Source: an uncultured Latescibacterota bacterium
Lineage (GTDB): Bacteria; Latescibacterota; UBA2968
Length of the DNA stretch: 64,000 bases
Direction of reading: 5' to 3'
Assembly (NCBI GenBank): GCA_958295785.1
Contig: OY282377.1
Location: 1,564,394 to 1,628,393 of the forward strand
In this document: piece by piece, positions 47,706 to 57,599 of the stretch
Position numbering within the stretch: position 1 is the first letter of the stretch
Layout of the letters: each line of letters begins with the position of its first letter
The notes under the pieces: model-generated
Seen by the model: the letters and a program-made list of their open reading frames with translations, nothing else
Told to the model about the DNA's origin: nothing
Databases searched by the model: none
Translations under genes and position numbers: made by a program

Positions 47706-47860
47706 TCTGCCTCGACACACAACCCGTTCTCTGGGGGATTCAGGCATTTGCCTCTCAAGGCCAGGAACCGATGTGGGCTTTTTTTTTCCTGCCAGACCTC
47801 GATTCCATCGCATTGAACTTGTTTAATCCCATGCAAGGAAGCACAAAATGGCGAAGATAG
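47702..47860 (+). pseudogene. PIN-domain N-terminal remnant
   Basis: Starts at GTG overlapping the previous stop and reads VICLDTQPVLWGIQAFASQG QEPM, the opening strand and helix of a PIN domain with its first Asp. It then changes to unrelated residues through TTTTTTTTTCC at 47780-47789 and ends by 47860. The rest of the PIN domain is missing. The replacing sequence includes a 29-bp copy of the uvrD 5' end. Confidence 0.6.
47790..47818 (+). repeat. Left 29-bp direct repeat of ATPase-TOPRIM module
   Basis: TGCCAGACCTCGATTCCATC then GCATTGAAC. The identical stretch, with one change, occurs at 49845-49873 across the start codon region of the uvrD-like gene. Confidence 0.75.
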
Positions 47861-49122
47861 AAGGCTTTAGTGTAAAAAATTTCAAGTCGCTCAAGGATAT
47901 TACACTGGGCCGTCTTTGGAACCAACAAAACAACGAACCGCTCACCCCTATGACGGCGGTCATCGGCAAAAACGGCACGGGAAAAAGTGCCCTATTTGAT
48001 GCGTTTGGGTTCCTCGCCGACGCCCTCAAGTCCGGCGTGGAGGAGGCCTGCGACGCACGCGGGCGTGGCGGCTTTGAGAGAATGCGGGCCCAAGGACAAA
48101 CAGGCCCTATCGGGTTCGAAGTGTATTATAGAGAACACGAAAACGCCTGGCCCATTACCTACAAGATCGCCATTGAGACGGATCAATTCGGACGGCCCTA
48201 TATGTTGCGAGAAGTAATGATCGAAGATCGGGGGAACGAGATGTCATCTTTTTTTCTTTATTTACTCGCAGGAGGGGGCCTTGCGTGGAAGGGAAACCAA
48301 GCAGTTGGTCAAGTTGATGAAGCAGCCGAAGGTTTCAAGCTATCCGATTTGATAAGTTCACTAGAAGAAGGGAAAGAATTTAGCGACGCCGAACCCATTG
48401 AATTGGAAGATCGCCGCAAGCTGGGCATTGCCACGCTCGGCGCCTTGAAACAACACCCGCGCATCGCCTCTTTTCGCCGCTTCATCGAAGGCTGGTATCT
48501 CAGCTACTTCACCCCAGACGCGGCGCGTAGCCTGCCGTTGGCCGGCCCCCAGCAACGCCTCAATGTCCACGGCGACAACATCGGCAATGTCGTGCAATTC
48601 ATGGAGCGCGAACATCCCCGGCGTTTTCGCGCCATTCTAAAAAGGATCGCCGATAAAATCCCGGGCATAGACAAAATCGACACGGAAAGAACCAGCGACG
48701 GCCGGTTGCTGCTCCGCTTCAACGACAAAGGCTTTCAGGCACCCTTTTACGCGCAGCAGGTATCCGACGGGACGCTCAAGGTATTTGCCTACCTCTTGTT
48801 GCTCGAAGACCCAACCCCGCCCGCGTTTCTCTGTATTGAGGAACCGGAGAACGGCCTGTATCACAAACTCTTGGAGACCCTCGCCGACGAATTTCGAGAA
48901 CACGCCAGCGGACGCCGGGGCGGTTCGCAAATTTTTATTACCACGCATCAGCCATACCTTGTCGATGCGTTAGATCCGAGAGAAGTCTGGATTTTGGAAA
49001 AGGGCGCGGATGGCTTTTCGACCATCCGGCGGGCGAGCGACGACCCCATTGTGAACAACATGGTCGAGGCGGGATTGCCGTTGGGCGGGCTCTGGTACAG
49101 CGATTATCTCGACGCGAGGTGA
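47848..49122 (+). CDS. AAA family ATPase, defence-type (AAA_15/21, OLD-like)
   Basis: A 424-residue SMC/ABC-like ATPase. Walker A GKNGTGKS is at residues 40-47, Walker B FLCIEEPENGLY near 327, and the His loop ITTHQPYL near 360. The opening FSVKNFKSLKDI is typical. Such ATPases work with a TOPRIM or nuclease partner in OLD-, PARIS- or retron-like defence systems. The next gene, four bases downstream, encodes a TOPRIM-like protein. The module sits between 29-bp direct repeats. A defence role is inferred from pairing and context. Confidence 0.82.
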   Translation: MAKIEGFSVKNFKSLKDITLGRLWNQQNNEPLTPMTAVIGKNGTGKSALFDAFGFLADALKSGVEEACDARGRGGFERMRAQGQTGPIGFEVYYREHENAWPITYKIAIETDQFGRPYMLREVMIEDRGNEMSSFFLYLLAGGGLAWKGNQAVGQVDEAAEGFKLSDLISSLEEGKEFSDAEPIELEDRRKLGIATLGALKQHPRIASFRRFIEGWYLSYFTPDAARSLPLAGPQQRLNVHGDNIGNVVQFMEREHPRRFRAILKRIADKIPGIDKIDTERTSDGRLLLRFNDKGFQAPFYAQQVSDGTLKVFAYLLLLEDPTPPAFLCIEEPENGLYHKLLETLADEFREHASGRRGGSQIFITTHQPYLVDALDPREVWILEKGADGFSTIRRASDDPIVNNMVEAGLPLGGLWYSDYLDAR

Positions 49123-49126
49123 TGGG

Positions 49127-49786
49127 ATGCACTTTGTGATACTCGTCGAAGATCAGTCCGGCAAAAAGGCCCTCGACATCTTGATGCCGAAGATCTACGG
49201 CAATCAACATACAGCCAGGGTTCGCAGTTACCGGGGCATTGGTCGCATTCCAAAAAATCTCAAAAGTAGCACGGATGCGAGCAAACGTCTTTTGCTCGAC
49301 CAACTTCCCAAGTTACTCAGGGGGTATGGGAAAACATTTGCCAACTACCCCGTCAACTATCCAGCAGCGGTGATTGTGGTTTGCGACTTGGACGACAAGT
49401 GTCTAAAAACATTTCGCCGAGAACTCTTCACCGTCTTGAATGCGTGCAAACCCAAGCCAGAGACCCGGTTTTGTATTGCCATAGAAGAAGGGGAAGCGTG
49501 GTTGCTCGGCGACATCCCCGCGATCAAGGCAGCGTATCCACAGGCCGAGGACGGTGTACTGAATCGCTATCAAAACGACTCGATTTGCGGCACCTGGGAA
49601 CGGCTGGCCGACGCGGTATTTGTCGGCGGCTCAAATGCGCTGAAAAACAAGGGGGCTGTAGGCAGAGAAAAATCAGCGTGGGCAGAGAAAATCGCGCCGC
49701 AGATGAATGTCGATAACAACGCATCGCCCAGTTTCCGCTACTTTCGGGAAAAGATTCGAGAACTGACCCGTAGTTTTTCCACGTAA
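49127..49786 (+). CDS. DUF4276/TOPRIM-like partner protein
   Basis: A 219-residue protein with the layout of a TOPRIM domain: an N-terminal strand ending in Glu (HFVILVEDQSGKKAL), a central DxD (VIVVCDLDDKCLK, about residue 90) and a second acidic region FCIAIEEGEAWLLGD. It matches my memory of DUF4276-type proteins encoded with AAA ATPases. The TOPRIM acidic residues would bind metal for nicking or nuclease activity. It ends one base before an upstream in-frame codon of uvrD, so the genes are packed closely. Confidence 0.72.
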   Translation: MHFVILVEDQSGKKALDILMPKIYGNQHTARVRSYRGIGRIPKNLKSSTDASKRLLLDQLPKLLRGYGKTFANYPVNYPAAVIVVCDLDDKCLKTFRRELFTVLNACKPKPETRFCIAIEEGEAWLLGDIPAIKAAYPQAEDGVLNRYQNDSICGTWERLADAVFVGGSNALKNKGAVGREKSAWAEKIAPQMNVDNNASPSFRYFREKIRELTRSFST

Positions 49787-49843
49787 ATGGCAACTATCTG
49801 TCGCTATCAGCCCCTCCCCATCCGCTTACTGACCCTCGATCCC

Positions 49844-52804
49844 ATGCCAGACCTCGATCCCATCGCATTGAACGAACGCCAGCGCGCGGCTGTCACCGCG
49901 CCGATGGGCCCTGTGCTCGTCCTCGCCGGGCCGGGCACGGGCAAAACGCGCGTGTTGACCGAGCGCATCGCGCATCTGATCGCGCATCGCGGCGTTGGGC
50001 CAGAAAACATCTTGGCACTCACATTTACCAACAAAGCCGCCGCAGAAATGCAAAGCCGCTTGGCCCGCGCTATGGGCAAAGCCGTTGCAGAGGCCGTCAC
50101 CGCGGGGACATTTCACCGGTTCTGCGTTGACATATTGCGCCAGCATCGAGAAACCGCCGGCCTGCCGCGGCATTTTGGCATTGCGGATGAAGACCTCCAG
50201 CGCACGCTCATCTATCGCGCATTTCCGCGTCTCAATCCCAACGAAAGCAACTTGAACAATGCGATGCAAAACGTGAACCGCCTGAAATGGCAACGGCGGT
50301 ACAAACCGCACGTTCCGATGAAAAAAGGGGATGCGGACCTGCTCGACAAGTATGAAGCCGAACTGTCAACAAACCGCTTGATCGACTTTGACGACCTCAT
50401 CTTTCGCGCACACGATTTGCTCCATGCACACCGCGAGATATTGTCGGCGTACCGCGCGCAATTTCAACACCTTCTCGTCGATGAATTTCAAGACACGGAC
50501 CCGGTGCAATACGCGCTGGTCTGCCTCTTGGGCGCGGCCCATCGCAGCGTCTTTGTGGTGGCAGACGACGAGCAATCCATCTACGGCTGGCGGCACGCCA
50601 CGCCCGAACACATCGCGCAATTTCAACGCGACTTTCCCAAAAGCCGCCCGCCCATTCTCTTGGAGGAAAACTACCGATCCTCTGCGGAAATTCTGCGCTT
50701 GGCACGCCTGTTCATCGCCCACAACGACGCCTTGTTTGAACGCGCGATCAGAACCCAAAAATCGGGCCGCCGCGTGCGGGGCATGGCATTTGACACCTTT
50801 TTGGAAGAGGGCGAATTTATTGCCGGCGACATCTGGGACCGCATCCGCGAAACGCCCGACCTGATGCACCGCGACATGGCCGTGCTCTATCCGCAACACG
50901 CCATTGGCAACGAACTCGAGCGCATCTTTATGCGCGCCAATGTCCCCTGCCAGATGGCGCATCGCAGGGGCTTGTTCGACCAACCCGTGATCCGCCGCGC
51001 CCTGTCTGTGTTGCGCTACGCGCTGGACGGGGCGAATGACGCGAGCCTGGAATTGTTCTTGCGGCGCGAACTCGAAGCGGTCGATCCCAAACTCTATCCG
51101 GCCGTGCGGGGGTTTCAAAAACGCAGTGCTATCGGCAGTTTCAAACAGGCGGCTTTTCTCTATCCGCGCACGGTCGAACCGGCAGAAGGCATTGAAGTCG
51201 AACGCGCCCTGGGGCTGGCAGGCGTGGTACACAACGCCGTGCAAAAAGGCGCGGTCGCATCCCTGCCCCATCTGGTGGACGACATTCTCGACCAACTGAA
51301 CACCTCGGAATTGCCATCGCTGAAAAACCACCTCCACCACATCGTCGATCCGCTCGCGTTTCCGGGCATTGACGCCGCGCTCGACCGCGTGTTGCCCCTG
51401 TGGCGTGCGGGCGGCACCTTGTATGTCGCGTGCAAAGACGAGGTGACGCGCCACCTGCTCACCACGCTGATCCGCGATGCACTCGCGCGCCCGGGCCTCA
51501 CCATCCGCGAGGCCGCGCCCGGTAGCCGATTGGAACTGTTGCCAGACACGCTCATTTTGTCTTTTGACGAAGACCCGCCCAAAACGCCCGGTCACTTCTT
51601 GCACTTGGGCACATCGCACAGTGCCATGCTCATCGCCCTCAAATTGTGCCAAGCGATCCACTGCGCGGACCTGCCGCCCTATCTGCCGGAATACACAACT
51701 TGCGCGCTGGAAACCACGAGCGGAGATCCCGACCACGCGCAAATCGAGGCCATTGCCGCGGTGCGCGTGCGCGATGGCCGCGTTGCCGAAACATTTTATT
51801 CGCCCGTGCGATTGCGAGAAACCGAGGGCACAACCCCCACATTTCAGGAAATCTACCTCGCGTTTCAATCCTTTGTCGGCATCGACATCATGATCGCGCA
51901 CAACGGGTATGCGTTTGCCTTTCAGGTCTTGCACCGCGAGGCCCGGCGCAATGCCCGCTCGCGCATGTCCAATCCCACCATTGACACCTTGCCCATGGCG
52001 CGGAGCTATGGCGCGCCCTCGGCCCGGGATCTGCAATCCCTTTGCGATCAGTACGGCATCGCGCCCGAGGCAAACGCGCCGCCCGCCCTCGCGCAGGCCC
52101 TCGCGCTCTATCGCGCATTTGAAGCGATGAAACGAGAACGCGCATCTCGCTATCGGCGCATGACCCACGAACGCCTGTTGGATCAAGTCGCTTTGGGCAT
52201 GCTTTTTTGCCAACGCCGCGCACGGGGTCAAAAATTCTCTCTCGAAGAACACCTGCATTTTAACTTGGGGGCGCAGCGTTTGATGGGGCCGGCCAATTTG
52301 TGCATTCGCAACCTCGTCCAGCAATTTCCCCGGTTGGACGCGGACCGGTTGCGCGGCCAGGCGCGGATGCTGCTCGGCGAAGATCCGCGTCCCGAAGTCC
52401 TCGCCCTGCATGCGCCGGATCAAATTCAACGCTTTCGAGACCTGTGCCAACGCCACGGCACAGCCGCGCCCTCTCTGCAAGAAGGCATTCGCAACTTGCT
52501 CGATTTTGCGGACCTCTACAAAGTCGAATTGGACACCCTCGACCGCGATGCCGTGCATCTGCTCACCTTGCACGCGGCAAAAGGGCTCGAATTTCACGAG
52601 GTCTATATCTGCGGCTTGGAAGACCGCATCTTGCCCAATGCGCGCGCCCTCAACAGCGCGGACATGGCCGAGCAGCGCAGGCTCTTGTACGTGGGCATGA
52701 CCCGCGCAATGGACCGCCTCACCCTCTCCTGCGTGCGCCAACGCCCGGGCCGAAACATGACGCCGTCCAGATTTTGGGACGAACTCGCCTTAGAACGCGA
52801 GTAG
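49844..52804 (+). CDS. UvrD/PcrA-type helicase with degenerate exonuclease insert
   Basis: A 986-residue superfamily 1 helicase. Motif I GPGTGKT is near residue 30, motif II DEFQDTDP near 214, and the C-terminal motifs lie in HAAKGLEFHEVYICGLEDRI and RRLLYVGMTRAMDRL. It unwinds DNA in repair. Between the helicase halves (about 612-770) is a DnaQ-like fold in which the catalytic acids are lost: ALETTS in place of DxETT, AHNGYAFAF in place of HNxxFD, and no late HxxxxD. Start ATG 49844 is preferred; an in-frame start 57 bases upstream overlaps the previous gene's end. The first codons form one of two 29-bp repeats. Confidence 0.85.
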   Translation: MPDLDPIALNERQRAAVTAPMGPVLVLAGPGTGKTRVLTERIAHLIAHRGVGPENILALTFTNKAAAEMQSRLARAMGKAVAEAVTAGTFHRFCVDILRQHRETAGLPRHFGIADEDLQRTLIYRAFPRLNPNESNLNNAMQNVNRLKWQRRYKPHVPMKKGDADLLDKYEAELSTNRLIDFDDLIFRAHDLLHAHREILSAYRAQFQHLLVDEFQDTDPVQYALVCLLGAAHRSVFVVADDEQSIYGWRHATPEHIAQFQRDFPKSRPPILLEENYRSSAEILRLARLFIAHNDALFERAIRTQKSGRRVRGMAFDTFLEEGEFIAGDIWDRIRETPDLMHRDMAVLYPQHAIGNELERIFMRANVPCQMAHRRGLFDQPVIRRALSVLRYALDGANDASLELFLRRELEAVDPKLYPAVRGFQKRSAIGSFKQAAFLYPRTVEPAEGIEVERALGLAGVVHNAVQKGAVASLPHLVDDILDQLNTSELPSLKNHLHHIVDPLAFPGIDAALDRVLPLWRAGGTLYVACKDEVTRHLLTTLIRDALARPGLTIREAAPGSRLELLPDTLILSFDEDPPKTPGHFLHLGTSHSAMLIALKLCQAIHCADLPPYLPEYTTCALETTSGDPDHAQIEAIAAVRVRDGRVAETFYSPVRLRETEGTTPTFQEIYLAFQSFVGIDIMIAHNGYAFAFQVLHREARRNARSRMSNPTIDTLPMARSYGAPSARDLQSLCDQYGIAPEANAPPALAQALALYRAFEAMKRERASRYRRMTHERLLDQVALGMLFCQRRARGQKFSLEEHLHFNLGAQRLMGPANLCIRNLVQQFPRLDADRLRGQARMLLGEDPRPEVLALHAPDQIQRFRDLCQRHGTAAPSLQEGIRNLLDFADLYKVELDTLDRDAVHLLTLHAAKGLEFHEVYICGLEDRILPNARALNSADMAEQRRLLYVGMTRAMDRLTLSCVRQRPGRNMTPSRFWDELALERE
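49845..49873 (+). repeat. Right 29-bp direct repeat of ATPase-TOPRIM module
   Basis: TGCCAGACCTCGATCCCATC then GCATTGAAC, one mismatch to 47790-47818. It overlaps the uvrD start codon and encodes MPDLDPIALN. Confidence 0.75.
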
Positions 52805-52879: not shown

Positions 52880-55800
52880 TCATCTTTTCGCCTCATAGAC
52901 TTGGACAAAGCGCAGGAAGTCGCCGAAGCCAACGCGCCCATCGGCGTTGAGGTCGAAGCGCGGGTCAGCCGTGTCAAAGGCATGGGCGAACATCAGAAAA
53001 TCGCGGAAGTCGAGGCGGCCATCGGCATTGAAGTCGGTGGTTTTTTTATGGCTTGCAGATGCTGTGATCGCCGAATCGAAAGCAATGGCGAGTTCGCGGA
53101 TTCGGTGATTTCCCGCGTCTGCGATGAGCAGGGTGCCCGTGGGGCTGATCGCCAACCCGCGCGGCGCGTTGAGGCTCACCGCGAGGCCCCCGCCCGATTC
53201 GAGGTCGCGTTGTCCCAAACCCGTGCCGCCCACGCTTTGGATCAAGCCGTTGTTCAGGTCGAGCAAGCGAATGCGGTGGTTGCCCGTATCCGCGATGAAA
53301 AGATACCCGCGCCCATCGACTGCAATGCCCTGCGGTCGGTTGAGCCGCGCCCATAGACCCGCTTCCCCATCGCCGGAAAATCCGCTCGTGCCCGTTCCCG
53401 CAAGGGTGGTGATGTTGCCCGTGGGATCAATTTTGCGGATGCGGTGGTTGTCCGTATCCGCGATATAGACATTGTTTTGCGCGTCTATGGCAATGGCACT
53501 CGGGCGGTTTAGGCGGGCCTGTGTGCCCGCGCCGCCATCGCCGGCAAATATCCCCTGATCGGGGGCGCCGCTGCCGGCAAAGGTGGTGATGTTGCCCGTG
53601 GGATCGACTTTGCGGATGCGGTGGTTGTCCGTGTCTGCAATGTAAATGCTGCCGCCTCGATCAACGGCGAGACCCGTGGGGCCTCTGAGGTTGGCATTGG
53701 ATGCCCGCCCTCCGTCGCCGCCAAACTGACCGATGCCCGTGCCTGCAAGGGGGGCCAGCGCGCCGTTGCGTATTTCGCGCACCACATGGCCTTGGGTTTC
53801 GGTGATGACCAACGCATTGCCCTTGAAGGCCAAGCCATAAGGCGCGGCGAGCCCAGCCTCTTGCCCTGTGCCCGCGAGGGTTTGGATCGCGCCGGTTTCC
53901 ACGCCGATGCGGCGAATGCGGTTGTTGCCCGTATCGGCGATGTAAATATTGCCCAAGGTATCGACCGAGACGCCTTGCGGATTTTGGAGGAGTGCGTCTG
54001 TTGCCGCGCCGCCATCGCCGGCAAATCCGCCGGTTTCATCCCCAGAACCGGCGATGGTGCGTATGGTCAGGGCGTCTTCTGCAAAGGGTTGGATGAGTTC
54101 AAGTTCAACGCGGCCGGGCGCGAGCCCCTGGCTTTCCGCGACAATGACAACGCGGCCGGGGTCTTGCCCTGCGCGATAACGCGATGTCGCAACCCCGTCG
54201 CGCACTGCAATTGAATCTGCGCCTACTTGCTCTGAATTTGGCGAGGGGATGATCAAGCCGCTGCCGGTTTCAATGCGGAATCGCACGGCGCGACCGCTGG
54301 CAACCACGGGCCTGTTTTCGCGGGTGAGAATCCGCGCGGTCAGTTCGGTCTCAGAGATGCCATTGCCCAATAAGTGGGTCGCGTCTGCGGTTAAGAGCAC
54401 GCGCGCTGCCGGGCGTGGCACCTGCTCGGTGATGTCGATGATGCGATTGACCGATAAATCGTCTGTATCGCCGCGAAATTGCTGCACGATGCCACTAGGC
54501 CAGCGCAGGGAAAGCACCGAGACGCGCTCGGCATTGCCTATGCCGAACCACGCGATAGGCGCGTCTTGAGATAAGAAGGACGCGCCGCCGGAAATTTCGC
54601 GCATGGCGCGGCGGTTGTCGCCATAGCTCATTTCAATGCGCGTGCCAATGGCGTCTGCGCTGCTTTGCGTGCCGCGCAGGCGAATGCCAAGCCAATTGCC
54701 ATCGGCCTCGCGGTTGCGATACAGAACATCCGGGCCATTTTGCACCGCGATGTACAAATCCAACTTGCCATCGGCGTTGAAATCGGCAAGCGCGAGGCCC
54801 CTGCTGTCCGCGCTGAGGCCGAGGCCCAATGTATCGGCCATTTCTGCAAATTCCTGCCCGCCTCGATTTTTGTAATACAAATTGGGTTGCCCGCTGTTGG
54901 TGACATAGAGGTCGAGGAATCCATCGTTGTCAAAATCGCCCCAGGCCGCGCCTCTGCCGCGCCCATCGTGGTCGAGGCCCATGTCCGGGGCGCGATCTGT
55001 GAACTTGCCGCTGTCATTGACATACAATCTGTTGTTCGCGCCAAAGTAGGGGATGAACAAATCGAGATCGCCATCGTTGTCAAAATCGCCCCAGGCCGCG
55101 CCAAAACTCGGCCCGGCATCGGTTGGGCTGAAGTTGTTTTCGACGGCCGCGAAATGGCCGCCATCATTGCGAAAGAGGCGGTTGGGGCCGCTGTTTGCCA
55201 AAAAGAGATCCGGATCGCCATCGTTGTCAAAATCGCCCCAAGCCGGCTGAATCCCGCTTTCCACATCGCCGAGGCCCAAGGTGTCGGCGCGCTCGACAAA
55301 GCCATTGCCATTGTTCTGGTAAAACCGGTTCGCGCCAAAATTGGCGACGTAGAGATCCAGGTCCCCATCGCGGTCGTAATCCGCCCAGGCCGCGCCGTAT
55401 CCGTCGCCGGGATCGGCAACACCCATGGCCGGGGCGATGTCGGTAAAACGCTCGCCATCATTGCGATACAACCGGTTGGGTTCGCCGAAATTGGTGACGT
55501 AGAGATCCAGGTCCCCGTCGCGATCCACATCGCCCCATATTCCCGCGCTTCCGTCGCCGGGGTCGTCAACGCCCATGATCGGGGCGATGTCGGTAAATCC
55601 CGCGCCATCGTTGCGATACAACCGGTTGGGTTCGTTGCTGCGGACGAGGTAGAGGTCGAGATCTCCGTCCTGGTCGTAATCCGCCCATGCCGCGCCAAAT
55701 CCCGCGCCGGAGTCACCCAACCCCCCATTGGACGACACATCGGAAAATCCGCCGGTTTGGGCGCGTTGCCCAATGCCCTGCAATTGGATCGCGGTCTCGG

Positions 55801-57553
55801 CGTTTGCGGGCGCGTTGCTAAAAATGGTGAGCGATGCGCGTTGCAGGGCTTCGGCCGTCGGGCGAAACGCAATGCGAAAGTCCCGGCTTTGTCCCGAGGC
55901 AATCCGCAAGGTGTCGGTGTGTTCAACGACAAATTGCGAGTCGGTCGTCGCGGCATGGGAAACGACCAGCACGCCCGCGCCCAAGTTGGAAATGCGTACG
56001 GACATGGATTGCGATTGCCCAATGGGCGTGGGATCAAAAACCAAGATATCGGATGGAAAAAGTCCGATGGCAGCGGCTTCTCCCACCCCCTGCACGCGGA
56101 CTGTGGCAGAAGGTGTACGCGGATCATCGGTGGTCAGGGTAATCACCCCCTCGGCGCGCCCCTCGCGCGTGGGGTTAAATACGAGTTCAATTTCAGCCAT
56201 TTGTGCGATGCCCACATCTATGGGCAAGGCAGACAGGACGCGAAACGCGGCGTTATTGGAAACAACAGGGTCGATGCGAACGGGCAAATTGCCGCGGTTT
56301 TCAACGGACAGACCGCGCACAGCGGGATCGCCAATGCTGACCCTGTCAAAGTCGATATCCGCGGCAGCGGCGCGGAAAAGGGGCATGCGAAACCCCGGGT
56401 CGCGCAATTTGCGGATGCGGTTGTTGGCGATAAAAATGAGGTCGCCATCGCCGTCGATCAACACGCGCGTGGGGTGTTGCAAATCGGACAGGAGGCCGAG
56501 TGCCCCATCAGAACCCGCGCCCGACATGCCCGTTCCAGCAAGGGGCAACACAACGCCGGTTTCCGATTCGATGATGCGGATGCGGTTGTTGCCCGTATCG
56601 CCGATGTAAATATTGCCGCGTTGATCAACAGCAACGCCCGACGGGTTGAAAAACAACGCGCTTGTCGCGGCCCCGCCATCGCCTTTGTCGCGGTCGCCCA
56701 AGCGCGTTTCTTCAGGAGTCGCCTCCCGCCCGCCCACCGTGTTGATAACGACGGCAACGGTCGTGTCTTGCGCCACGCGGCTGATCCTGCGGACGCGCCC
56801 GTTGTCGGCATCGGCAATCAACAGATCGCCATTGCCCGCGAGGGCGAGTTGCCCAGGGGTCAATCCCGCTTGGTGCGCCAGCCCCCCATCCTGAATACTG
56901 GACGCCCGAGCACTGCCATTGCCCGCGACTGTACCGACGGTATTGTTTCTCAGATTGAGTTGCCGCACGCGGTTGTTGCCCGGTCCACTTGGATCGCCCC
57001 CATCTGAAATCAACAGCGCGGCATCGCCCAACATCGCCAGCGCGACAATGTCGTGGAACGTGGCTTCCAAAGCGGGCACGCCATCGTTGAACCCTCCTTC
57101 GCCGGTGCCTGCCACTGTGGCGATGATACCCGAGGGATCGACGCGCCGCACGCGGCGATTTTGCGCGTCACTCGCGCCTCCGCTGCTGAAATAGATATTG
57201 CCCGCGCTGTCAATCGCAATGCCTTGGGGCGCGTTGAGCATGGCGCGTGTGCCCGGACCGCCATCGCCCGAGAACCCAGGTTCGCCCGTGCCCGCGACAG
57301 TCGTGATGATGCCCGTCGTTGCATCGACCCGCCGAATGCGGTGGTTGTCCGTATCCGCGATGTAGAGGTTGCCCCGCGCATCTAAGGCAATGCCGAGCGG
57401 CCGGTTGAGCATCACATCCGTTGCCGGCACATTGTCGCCGTCTTCCAAACCCCCCCCGGCGATGGTGACTATCGCGCCCGGTGCTTGGGCAAAAACGCGC
57501 GTTGCCAATCCCGAAATCAGGAGGCATAAAAGAAAAATGTAGATATGGCGCAT
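52880..57553 (-). CDS. Giant secreted NHL/FG-GAP/ASPIC protein with dockerin-like tail
   Basis: A 1,557-residue exported protein starting MRHIYIFLLCLLISGLATRV (signal peptide). NHL propeller repeats fill about 24-400, followed by two HYDIN-like (choice-of-anchor D) domains (about 400-600), then seven or eight FG-GAP/VCBS repeats (AAWADYDQDGDLDLY type, about 600-930), an ASPIC/UnbV domain (about 950-1045), an Ig-like domain, a second NHL propeller (about 1168-1482) and two dockerin-like Ca loops at the end (DFNADGRLDFRDFLMF and DLNADGRVGFGDFLRF). It is probably a surface or matrix protein that binds glycans or partners; its ligand is unknown. The end motif matches the one in the CARDB giant protein. 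Confidence 0.9.
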   Translation of the reverse strand: MRHIYIFLLCLLISGLATRVFAQAPGAIVTIAGGGLEDGDNVPATDVMLNRPLGIALDARGNLYIADTDNHRIRRVDATTGIITTVAGTGEPGFSGDGGPGTRAMLNAPQGIAIDSAGNIYFSSGGASDAQNRRVRRVDPSGIIATVAGTGEGGFNDGVPALEATFHDIVALAMLGDAALLISDGGDPSGPGNNRVRQLNLRNNTVGTVAGNGSARASSIQDGGLAHQAGLTPGQLALAGNGDLLIADADNGRVRRISRVAQDTTVAVVINTVGGREATPEETRLGDRDKGDGGAATSALFFNPSGVAVDQRGNIYIGDTGNNRIRIIESETGVVLPLAGTGMSGAGSDGALGLLSDLQHPTRVLIDGDGDLIFIANNRIRKLRDPGFRMPLFRAAAADIDFDRVSIGDPAVRGLSVENRGNLPVRIDPVVSNNAAFRVLSALPIDVGIAQMAEIELVFNPTREGRAEGVITLTTDDPRTPSATVRVQGVGEAAAIGLFPSDILVFDPTPIGQSQSMSVRISNLGAGVLVVSHAATTDSQFVVEHTDTLRIASGQSRDFRIAFRPTAEALQRASLTIFSNAPANAETAIQLQGIGQRAQTGGFSDVSSNGGLGDSGAGFGAAWADYDQDGDLDLYLVRSNEPNRLYRNDGAGFTDIAPIMGVDDPGDGSAGIWGDVDRDGDLDLYVTNFGEPNRLYRNDGERFTDIAPAMGVADPGDGYGAAWADYDRDGDLDLYVANFGANRFYQNNGNGFVERADTLGLGDVESGIQPAWGDFDNDGDPDLFLANSGPNRLFRNDGGHFAAVENNFSPTDAGPSFGAAWGDFDNDGDLDLFIPYFGANNRLYVNDSGKFTDRAPDMGLDHDGRGRGAAWGDFDNDGFLDLYVTNSGQPNLYYKNRGGQEFAEMADTLGLGLSADSRGLALADFNADGKLDLYIAVQNGPDVLYRNREADGNWLGIRLRGTQSSADAIGTRIEMSYGDNRRAMREISGGASFLSQDAPIAWFGIGNAERVSVLSLRWPSGIVQQFRGDTDDLSVNRIIDITEQVPRPAARVLLTADATHLLGNGISETELTARILTRENRPVVASGRAVRFRIETGSGLIIPSPNSEQVGADSIAVRDGVATSRYRAGQDPGRVVIVAESQGLAPGRVELELIQPFAEDALTIRTIAGSGDETGGFAGDGGAATDALLQNPQGVSVDTLGNIYIADTGNNRIRRIGVETGAIQTLAGTGQEAGLAAPYGLAFKGNALVITETQGHVVREIRNGALAPLAGTGIGQFGGDGGRASNANLRGPTGLAVDRGGSIYIADTDNHRIRKVDPTGNITTFAGSGAPDQGIFAGDGGAGTQARLNRPSAIAIDAQNNVYIADTDNHRIRKIDPTGNITTLAGTGTSGFSGDGEAGLWARLNRPQGIAVDGRGYLFIADTGNHRIRLLDLNNGLIQSVGGTGLGQRDLESGGGLAVSLNAPRGLAISPTGTLLIADAGNHRIRELAIAFDSAITASASHKKTTDFNADGRLDFRDFLMFAHAFDTADPRFDLNADGRVGFGDFLRFVQVYEAKR

Positions 57554-57599
57554 GGTTGAAGAATCAGTGGTTAGTGGTCGGCGGTCAGTCCCATCCATC

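Follow-up and report, generated by a model that had tools for sequence, protein, structure and literature searches.

The 64,000-nucleotide stretch of an uncultured Latescibacterota bacterium analysed here (contig OY282377.1; hereafter the window) sits in a 5.66-Mb single-contig genome and encodes, at 49844-52804 of its forward strand, a UvrD/PcrA-like superfamily 1A (SF1A) helicase with a catalytically degenerate DnaQ/DEDDh-fold domain nested in its 2B region. The best overall explanation, which we regard as probable, is that this nested domain was once an active exonuclease and is now retained as a non-catalytic contact element. The architecture, the predicted fold, the residue losses with their order and the selection pattern are what we consider established here.

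Architecture and predicted fold

The helicase open reading frame (ORF) spans 49787-52804 of the forward strand (1005 residues). Its earliest in-frame ATG is at 49787, and M20 (49844) is the likelier start because the sequences of nine other members of the genus (the congeners) align from about this residue. Pfam models applied to the whole protein placed UvrD-helicase at residues 28-284 (PF00580, 266.8 bits), UvrD_C with its best stretch at residues 879-984 (PF13361, 139.5 bits) and, between both matches, the DnaQ-like RNase_T at residues 641-759 (PF00929, cut-off 24), with 34.4 bits in the whole protein and 39.4 bits in a sub-fragment. The Walker A motif GPGTGKT and the DEFQD motif could be read directly in the motor part 1A/1B/2A-N (residues 28-394, 49868-50968), whose end point was set by us; helicase domains and motifs, 2B included, carry their usual names here. 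The motor is followed by a 2B-region segment (residues 395-631, 50969-51679, from the structure alignment and the model), the nested domain (residues 632-790, 51680-52156, from Pfam, alignment and model), a second 2B-region segment (residues 791-915, 52157-52531, from alignment and model) and the C-terminal part of 2A (residues 916-1000, 52532-52786, from Pfam and the alignment to solved chains), in which the motifs assigned by position are presumably V and VI; all these features lie on the forward strand.

When the protein was aligned with the solved chains of PcrA, UvrD and Rep, the match ended at residues 420-454; with PcrA it picked up again at 916. The DnaQ-like domain therefore falls within the region that forms 2B in these helicases. 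The ORF encodes an SF1A helicase of the UvrD type, and a domain of DnaQ fold is nested in its 2B region; the original prediction, made from the sequence alone, had located a DnaQ-like domain inside a UvrD helicase, and the location was correct. Both the N- and C-terminal helicase domains and their motifs are present, and a full-length model aligned with UvrD (2is2) with a Z score of 28.9 and 6.9 Å over 383 residues. The protein is not a named PcrA, UvrD or Rep equivalog, since its scores stay far below the NCBIfam equivalog cut-offs (TIGR01073, 392 against 911 bits; NF008743, 373 against 965; TIGR01074, 359 against 951; TIGR01075, 356 against 1144; NF008172, 275 against 1168).

The full-length model had a mean predicted local distance difference test (pLDDT) value of 70.8 and a predicted template modelling score of 0.48, and was poor beyond residue 910; its residues 634-783 aligned with E. 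coli epsilon with a Z score of 16.6 and a root-mean-square deviation of 3.0 Å over 147 residues. A module model of residues 537-800, built with exonuclease relatives, reached a pLDDT of 83.4, with values above 90 across much of the exonuclease core. Its best structural matches (Z 18.5-19.7) were PolC (Z 19.7, 2.4 Å, 156 residues), Pol III epsilon (Z 19.2, 2.2 Å, 148 residues) and S. aureus DinG (Z 18.5, 3.8 Å, 162 residues), while one PolC entry gave Z 16.4, and Foldseek returned the same families. The structure-based comparison with PolC and DnaQ that had been proposed thus bears out the claim that the exonuclease fold is kept, as far as a predicted model can do so. By predicted fold and by its RNase_T profile match the domain belongs to the DEDDh exonucleases. 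In a sequence search it matched the PolC exonuclease 2p1j with an E value of 1.5e-5, compared with 5.5e-25 for the intact domain of the related helicase L018; similarly, the RNase_T score was 123-132 bits in three intact domains of related helicases, 46 bits in one congener and 34-39 bits in the window domain.

Loss of the catalytic residues

The DEDDh positions were read, with their codons, from an alignment (A1) of 13 sequences: the window protein, the nine congeners and three more distant orthologues, L018 (genome G013, same family, 71-72% identity), L019 (genome G019, same order but another family, 61%) and L020 (genome G011, same family, 46%). These three outgroups carry D, E, D, H and D, that is, all five catalytic residues, and so the search among homologues for relatives with an intact active site gave a positive answer. 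The nine congeners read A, E, D, P and R, keeping two of the five, and the window domain keeps one: A640 (51704-51706) at the Exo I Asp position, which is D in the three outgroups; E642 (51710-51712), the sole retained residue, which is E in 13 of 13 sequences; A711 (51917-51919) at the Exo II Asp position, which is D in all nine congeners and all three outgroups; P765 (52079-52081) at the Exo III His position; and Q770 (52094-52096) at the Exo III Asp position, where the nine congeners have R. In terms of motifs, D-x-E became A640-L-E642, HN-x-x-x-F-D became HNGYAFA, and H-x4-D became P765...Q770. The original prediction that each metal-binding acid had been lost was therefore right for three of the four acids (four of the five DEDDh residues) and wrong for E642. 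By its catalytic residues the window domain would not be a functional DEDDh exonuclease.

The first Asp, the His and the last Asp are absent in all ten aligned genus members, the window included, and their domain is also shorter by 15 residues around the HGIT loop (159 residues compared with 174), while the loss of the Exo II Asp is confined to the window among them. Because the outgroups read D, E, D, H, D and the losses are shared by the ten genus members, the motif losses are not due to chance. A maximum likelihood tree built on the non-exonuclease part placed the genus members, ten in all, in a group apart from L018, L019 and L020 (support 100). Since all three outgroups and the DEDDh family at large are intact, parsimony points to an intact ancestor and assigns three residue losses and the 15-residue deletion to the stem of the genus, and D711A to the window branch.

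The domain also outpaced the rest of the protein on the genus stem. The maximum likelihood length of this stem was 0.531 for the exonuclease domain, 0.189 for the non-exonuclease part and 0.186 for the motor, a roughly threefold higher rate in the nested domain than outside it. This excess sits in the flanks that carry the active site (1.049, about five times the rest) and not in the block of residues 684-741 (0.078). Non-synonymous changes (dN), counted on three-taxon trees with six choices of taxa, gave 0.26-0.30 on the genus branch versus 0.03-0.05 on the L018 branch for the exonuclease, and 0.10-0.115 on both branches for the non-exonuclease part; for every one of the six settings, all 500 bootstraps showed a greater excess in the exonuclease than in the remainder.

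These results bear on whether the domain could still cut, with metal ligands near E642 that have moved or been replaced. The invariance of this residue and the intact predicted fold would agree with it, and acids are known to have changed position within the RNase H-like superfamily (PMC3985635). However, the Asp residues of Exo I, II and III and the His are all absent in the window, and evolution is fastest in the flanks, in which any new ligands should lie; we regard continued cutting by this route as very unlikely.

Selection on the nested domain

Nei-Gojobori ratios of non-synonymous to synonymous change (dN/dS) for the exonuclease were 0.093 when the nine congeners were compared with one another and 0.111 when the window was compared with them, against 0.054-0.087 and 0.053-0.090, respectively, for the four other regions of the helicase. 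As read from these ratios, the nested domain is under purifying selection, only mildly more relaxed than the helicase. Constraint is concentrated in a retained block, residues 684-741 (51836-52009, forward strand), which comprises helix A, strand 4, helix B and the segment DTLPMARSY and was delimited with the alignment in view. The identity of the genus members to L018 is 0.86 in the block and 0.47 in the rest of the domain, a contrast reached in 0 of 10000 permutations, and it is not seen between intact domains (block and rest, 0.71 and 0.79 for L018-L019; 0.62 and 0.63 for L018-L020). Among the nine congeners, the proportions of non-synonymous (pN) and synonymous (pS) differences were 0.003 and 0.22 in the block, 0.044-0.046 and 0.27 in the flanks, and 0.016-0.022 and 0.24-0.26 in the motor. 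Variable columns numbered 2/58 in the block, 21/92 in the flanks (exploratory Fisher P 0.0009) and 52/452 in the motor; with the window added, they rose to 10/58, 40/92 (exploratory P 0.001) and 90/452. Residues 698-741 form the second-longest invariant run of the protein among the nine congeners. In addition, R717, R721, R726 and R739 are invariant in 13 of 13 orthologues, and the HNGY segment is retained in the window domain.

Gene conversion was considered as a source of the block's conservation and is unlikely, as synonymous difference is not clearly reduced there. With respect to L018, pS was 0.70-0.74 in the block and 0.64-0.83 in other segments, values near saturation that make a weak test; the block was second-lowest of seven segments in both L018 comparisons and, among the nine congeners, lowest by a small margin (0.22 versus 0.23-0.27).

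It could be argued that the domain is a decaying relic which lost its exonuclease and drifts, functionless, towards deletion. Three residues went on the stem and the window lacks a fourth, and stem rates in the flanks were about five times those of the rest, all of which would agree with decay. On the other hand, the dN/dS of the domain is about 0.1, no in-frame stop occurs in any of the 13 orthologues and only two of the 58 block columns vary among the congeners, which makes decay very unlikely. The nested domain is a pseudo-exonuclease kept by selection, and not DNA in decay.

Several points should be set against a retained contact element with its own conserved block. The boundaries of the block were set after viewing the alignment, and for this reason its P values are exploratory. 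The counts among the nine congeners are not independent because these sequences are 93-97.5% identical to one another. The block does not differ significantly from the motor among the nine congeners (Fisher P 0.07), still less once the window is included (P 0.73), and of the 919 windows of 58 residues in the protein, 57 vary as little or less among the congeners and 311 do so with the window sequence added. Some relaxation continues, as the whole-domain dN/dS is slightly above that found elsewhere, and one of the six dN settings showed faster change in the 2B segment that follows the domain as well (0.089, interval 0.012-0.176). The congeners retain both the Glu and the Exo II Asp. Furthermore, the root of the tree on L020 was our choice, and the helicase gene tree conflicts with the taxonomy, placing L019, of another family, closer than L020, of the same family; the greater divergence of the same-family L020 (46%) than of L019 (61%) suggests transfer or an old duplication of the helicase gene. 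Finally, packing of the block on 2B may explain its conservation equally well, with no binding role. Since the contrast with the flanks is marked in these exploratory tests, that with the motor is not significant and many windows vary as little, the alignment indicates that the block is about as constrained as the motor, distinct from the rest of the domain and not from the helicase.

The packing argument leads to a pure scaffold, that is, a dead domain without a ligand of its own that is kept because 2B folds around it, the block being the face that packs on 2B. Vestigial 3'-5' exonuclease domains carried by some Pol I enzymes offer an analogy. As the domain is nested, its precise loss would require 2B to be rejoined, and the constraint lies in one contiguous alpha-beta-alpha block, as an internal interface predicts. 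Nevertheless, the invariant basic residues R717, R721, R726 and R739, together with the HNGY segment, are more reminiscent of a surface or of a ligand site than of packing, and we consider a pure scaffold possible but on the whole doubtful.

Genomic context and distribution

A profile of 2B plus the exonuclease (557 positions) found end-to-end matches in 13 of 64 Latescibacterota genomes, mostly drafts in which absences are not firm: those of the window, the nine congeners, G011, G013 and G019. Twelve further genomes gave only partial matches of about the length of the exonuclease, and a fourteenth genome, that of a tenth congener (G010), holds a fragment of the helicase N-terminus at a contig end. 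The architecture is conserved across the orthologues, so that SF1A helicases with a DEDDh domain nested in 2B can be put forward as a candidate class. A scan of wider genome contigs with a single protein, a method that detects close relatives only, found seven loci; the seven named near relatives belong to six Latescibacterota metagenome-assembled genomes and one short contig labelled Poribacteria. The latter (L034:4235-4753, Candidatus Poribacteria) carries an 82%-identical helicase start at the contig edge, either by misbinning or by transfer. A paralogous UvrD-like helicase with a long N-terminal extension was observed in the same genome as the helicase (L035:33-3086); the extension may be PHP-like, as in the known PHP-UvrD fusion family.

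A viral or plasmid origin was rejected. Of the 22 pattern matches from a scan of viral contigs, none was confirmed as a relative, and in tblastn searches no record covered 80% of the query among 362 plasmid records matched by 2B plus the exonuclease, 1792 plasmid records matched by the full L020 protein or 104 phage records. The rows listed (20 and 10 for plasmids, 8 for phages) resemble separate helicases or separate exonucleases; among those listed, the widest plasmid match, in Acetoanaerobium noterae, covers 78% of the query in two pieces with 26.9% identity and is unannotated there. In the literature searched for UvrD-DnaQ or UvrD-DEDDh fusions and for inactive exonuclease or nuclease domains, the architecture does not appear in the titles or abstract openings of the papers listed, and we claim no priority beyond that literature.

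Another degenerate DnaQ-like domain was observed in the window genome, at the N-terminus of a DinG-like helicase (L068, G000:C1:4118793-4119227, reverse strand). Apart from the window domain, it is the sole DnaQ-like domain found in the genome by profile A4 (two hits, E<=0.1); searches with PF00929 were not exhaustive, since one listed only L068 and missed the window's own domain. In L068, D-x-E has become D-x-D, RFE stands in place of FD, and the Exo III His falls within a gap of 6 residues. Its counterparts in ten congeners (G001-G010) keep D-x-E and H-x4-D, and FE stands for FD in 18 of 18 rows.

Directly upstream of the helicase, at 47848-49786, lies a gene pair encoding an AAA_21 ATPase and a DUF4276 protein. 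One may ask whether the helicase works with this pair in an anti-phage system of the Gabija kind, since its two genes match the PADLOC candidate defence system HEC-01 with 601.6 and 309.4 bits, and GajB models give the helicase 312.9 bits. The shared UvrD motor alone can produce such GajB scores, however, and the pair had no match in 10 related loci, five with 5 kb of upstream sequence and the others with less, from 63 bases (L019) to 4.2 kb (L034). Moreover, GajB calls for an adjacent GajA, a fused OLD ATPase-Toprim protein, and upstream of the helicase AAA_21 and DUF4276 are encoded by two distinct genes. A Gabija or other defence partnership was rejected as extremely unlikely, and the pair is probably a lineage-specific insertion.

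Downstream, a metallophosphoesterase gene follows the helicase in seven of eight aligned loci (in L019 the ORF taken was not one). In the three loci where it was profiled, LpxH was the nearest model, with scores below its cut-offs, and it is probably a housekeeping neighbour. In the window, the place where congeners carry this gene is occupied by a large ORF of 1572 residues (52880-57598, reverse strand), which we read as having putative repeats of the NHL and FG-GAP-like types; L029 also carries a glycerol kinase at this position. The relative of the phosphoesterase in the window genome (72%) lies at G000:C1:2999194, and the helicase locus has therefore been rearranged. An open frame of 791 residues runs antisense to the helicase (50366-52741, reverse strand). 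Its matches in the congeners are split over several shorter frames, L019 has a long antisense frame of 927 residues, and the frame is probably an effect of composition.

Proposed role of the nested domain

The ancestral nested domain was very probably an active 3'-5' exonuclease, which would make the protein a helicase-nuclease in which the motor might have fed a 3' end to the exonuclease for trimming. The nuclease would have been switched off on the stem of the genus, when the first and last Asp, the His and the stretch of 15 residues at the HGIT loop disappeared, with the Exo II Asp lost later in the window lineage. The fold would not have been discarded: the halves of the active site drifted, while the block of helix A, strand 4 and helix B kept a level of constraint close to that of the motor. 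The 2B subdomain of UvrD-family helicases is described as regulatory, inhibiting the monomer by contact with duplex DNA and being rotated by dimerisation or by partners (PMC13238157), and 2B of Rep as required for efficient protein displacement (PMC6158625). A domain inserted in 2B should move along with this arm. Most likely, the dead domain is a contact element seated on the swinging 2B arm, one that would have kept a grip or docking surface and lost the cut. Its conserved basic block would serve to grasp a 3' end or single-stranded DNA, or else to dock a partner, and this contact would bias the position of 2B and the activation of the helicase. We infer the absence of nuclease activity in vitro, the binding and the effect on 2B, the binding and steering from the position of the domain in 2B and from which part of it is conserved. 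The original prediction of a module that binds DNA or protein and steers the helicase is thereby partly supported, through the kept fold, the lost catalytic set and the purifying selection. The invariant Arg 717, 721, 726 and 739 and the HNGY segment fit a contact with nucleic acid.

A more specific version, which we offer tentatively, is a neofunctionalised reader, in which the old groove and the basic helix-B block capture single-stranded DNA or a 3' end without cutting it and thereby control the switch of the helicase from closed to open. Both helicase-linked exonuclease domains found in this lineage, the UvrD-like and the DinG-like one, are degenerate, and if the reader version were true, a whole helicase-nuclease strategy would have shifted from cutting to holding. 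One protein family offers a graded series of nested exonucleases, active-looking, part-dead and nearly fully dead, with the motor intact throughout. Therefore, the non-cutting contribution of an exonuclease domain in 2B is directly testable, and one can also ask whether an inserted domain can reprogramme the regulatory 2B arm.

Comparison with known systems

The window helicase shares its motor domains and motifs with PcrA, UvrD and Rep. Unlike these proteins (about 670-770 residues by their PDB and NCBIfam lengths), it has about 1000 residues and an extra domain in 2B, and its scores of 275-392 bits contrast with equivalog cut-offs of 911-1168. With the DEDDh exonucleases of Pol III epsilon and PolC, the nested domain shares the predicted fold and alignable motifs, and the outgroup orthologues keep all five residues; the window domain differs from them in keeping one of the five and in lacking the HGIT loop. 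Vestigial exonuclease domains occur in some family A polymerases, and defunct nuclease and helicase folds in RecC; as in these, a dead nuclease fold lies inside a working DNA machine, though the families and the positions differ. RecB, AddA and AdnAB also join an SF1A motor to a nuclease-fold domain, and the window model matches these chains structurally. Their nuclease is a C-terminal RecB-type PD-(D/E)XK domain, in contrast to the DEDDh-type domain inside 2B found here.

The closest parallel is provided by ExoDinG and pExoDinG, DinG-like superfamily 2 (SF2) helicases with an N-terminal active or pseudo-exonuclease domain (PMC11981726). Both families combine a helicase with a domain of the DnaQ superfamily whose catalytic residues are lost in one subgroup, and the dead exonuclease-fold domain of pExoDinG was proposed to bind single strands and to influence the helicase (PMC11981726). 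The window protein is not a member of either group, as it has an SF1A motor and its domain at residues 632-790, and a separate DinG-type fusion exists in its genome. Where pExoDinG has an SF2 XPD-like motor and an N-terminal domain closest to DEDDy exonucleases, the window protein has a DEDDh-type domain nested in 2B. A further difference is that intact, part-dead and dead versions are found among the 13 orthologues, all of one order. By analogy, the window protein may be seen as the pExoDinG idea on an SF1A motor, a known parallel from which the nesting in 2B and the graded series set it apart.

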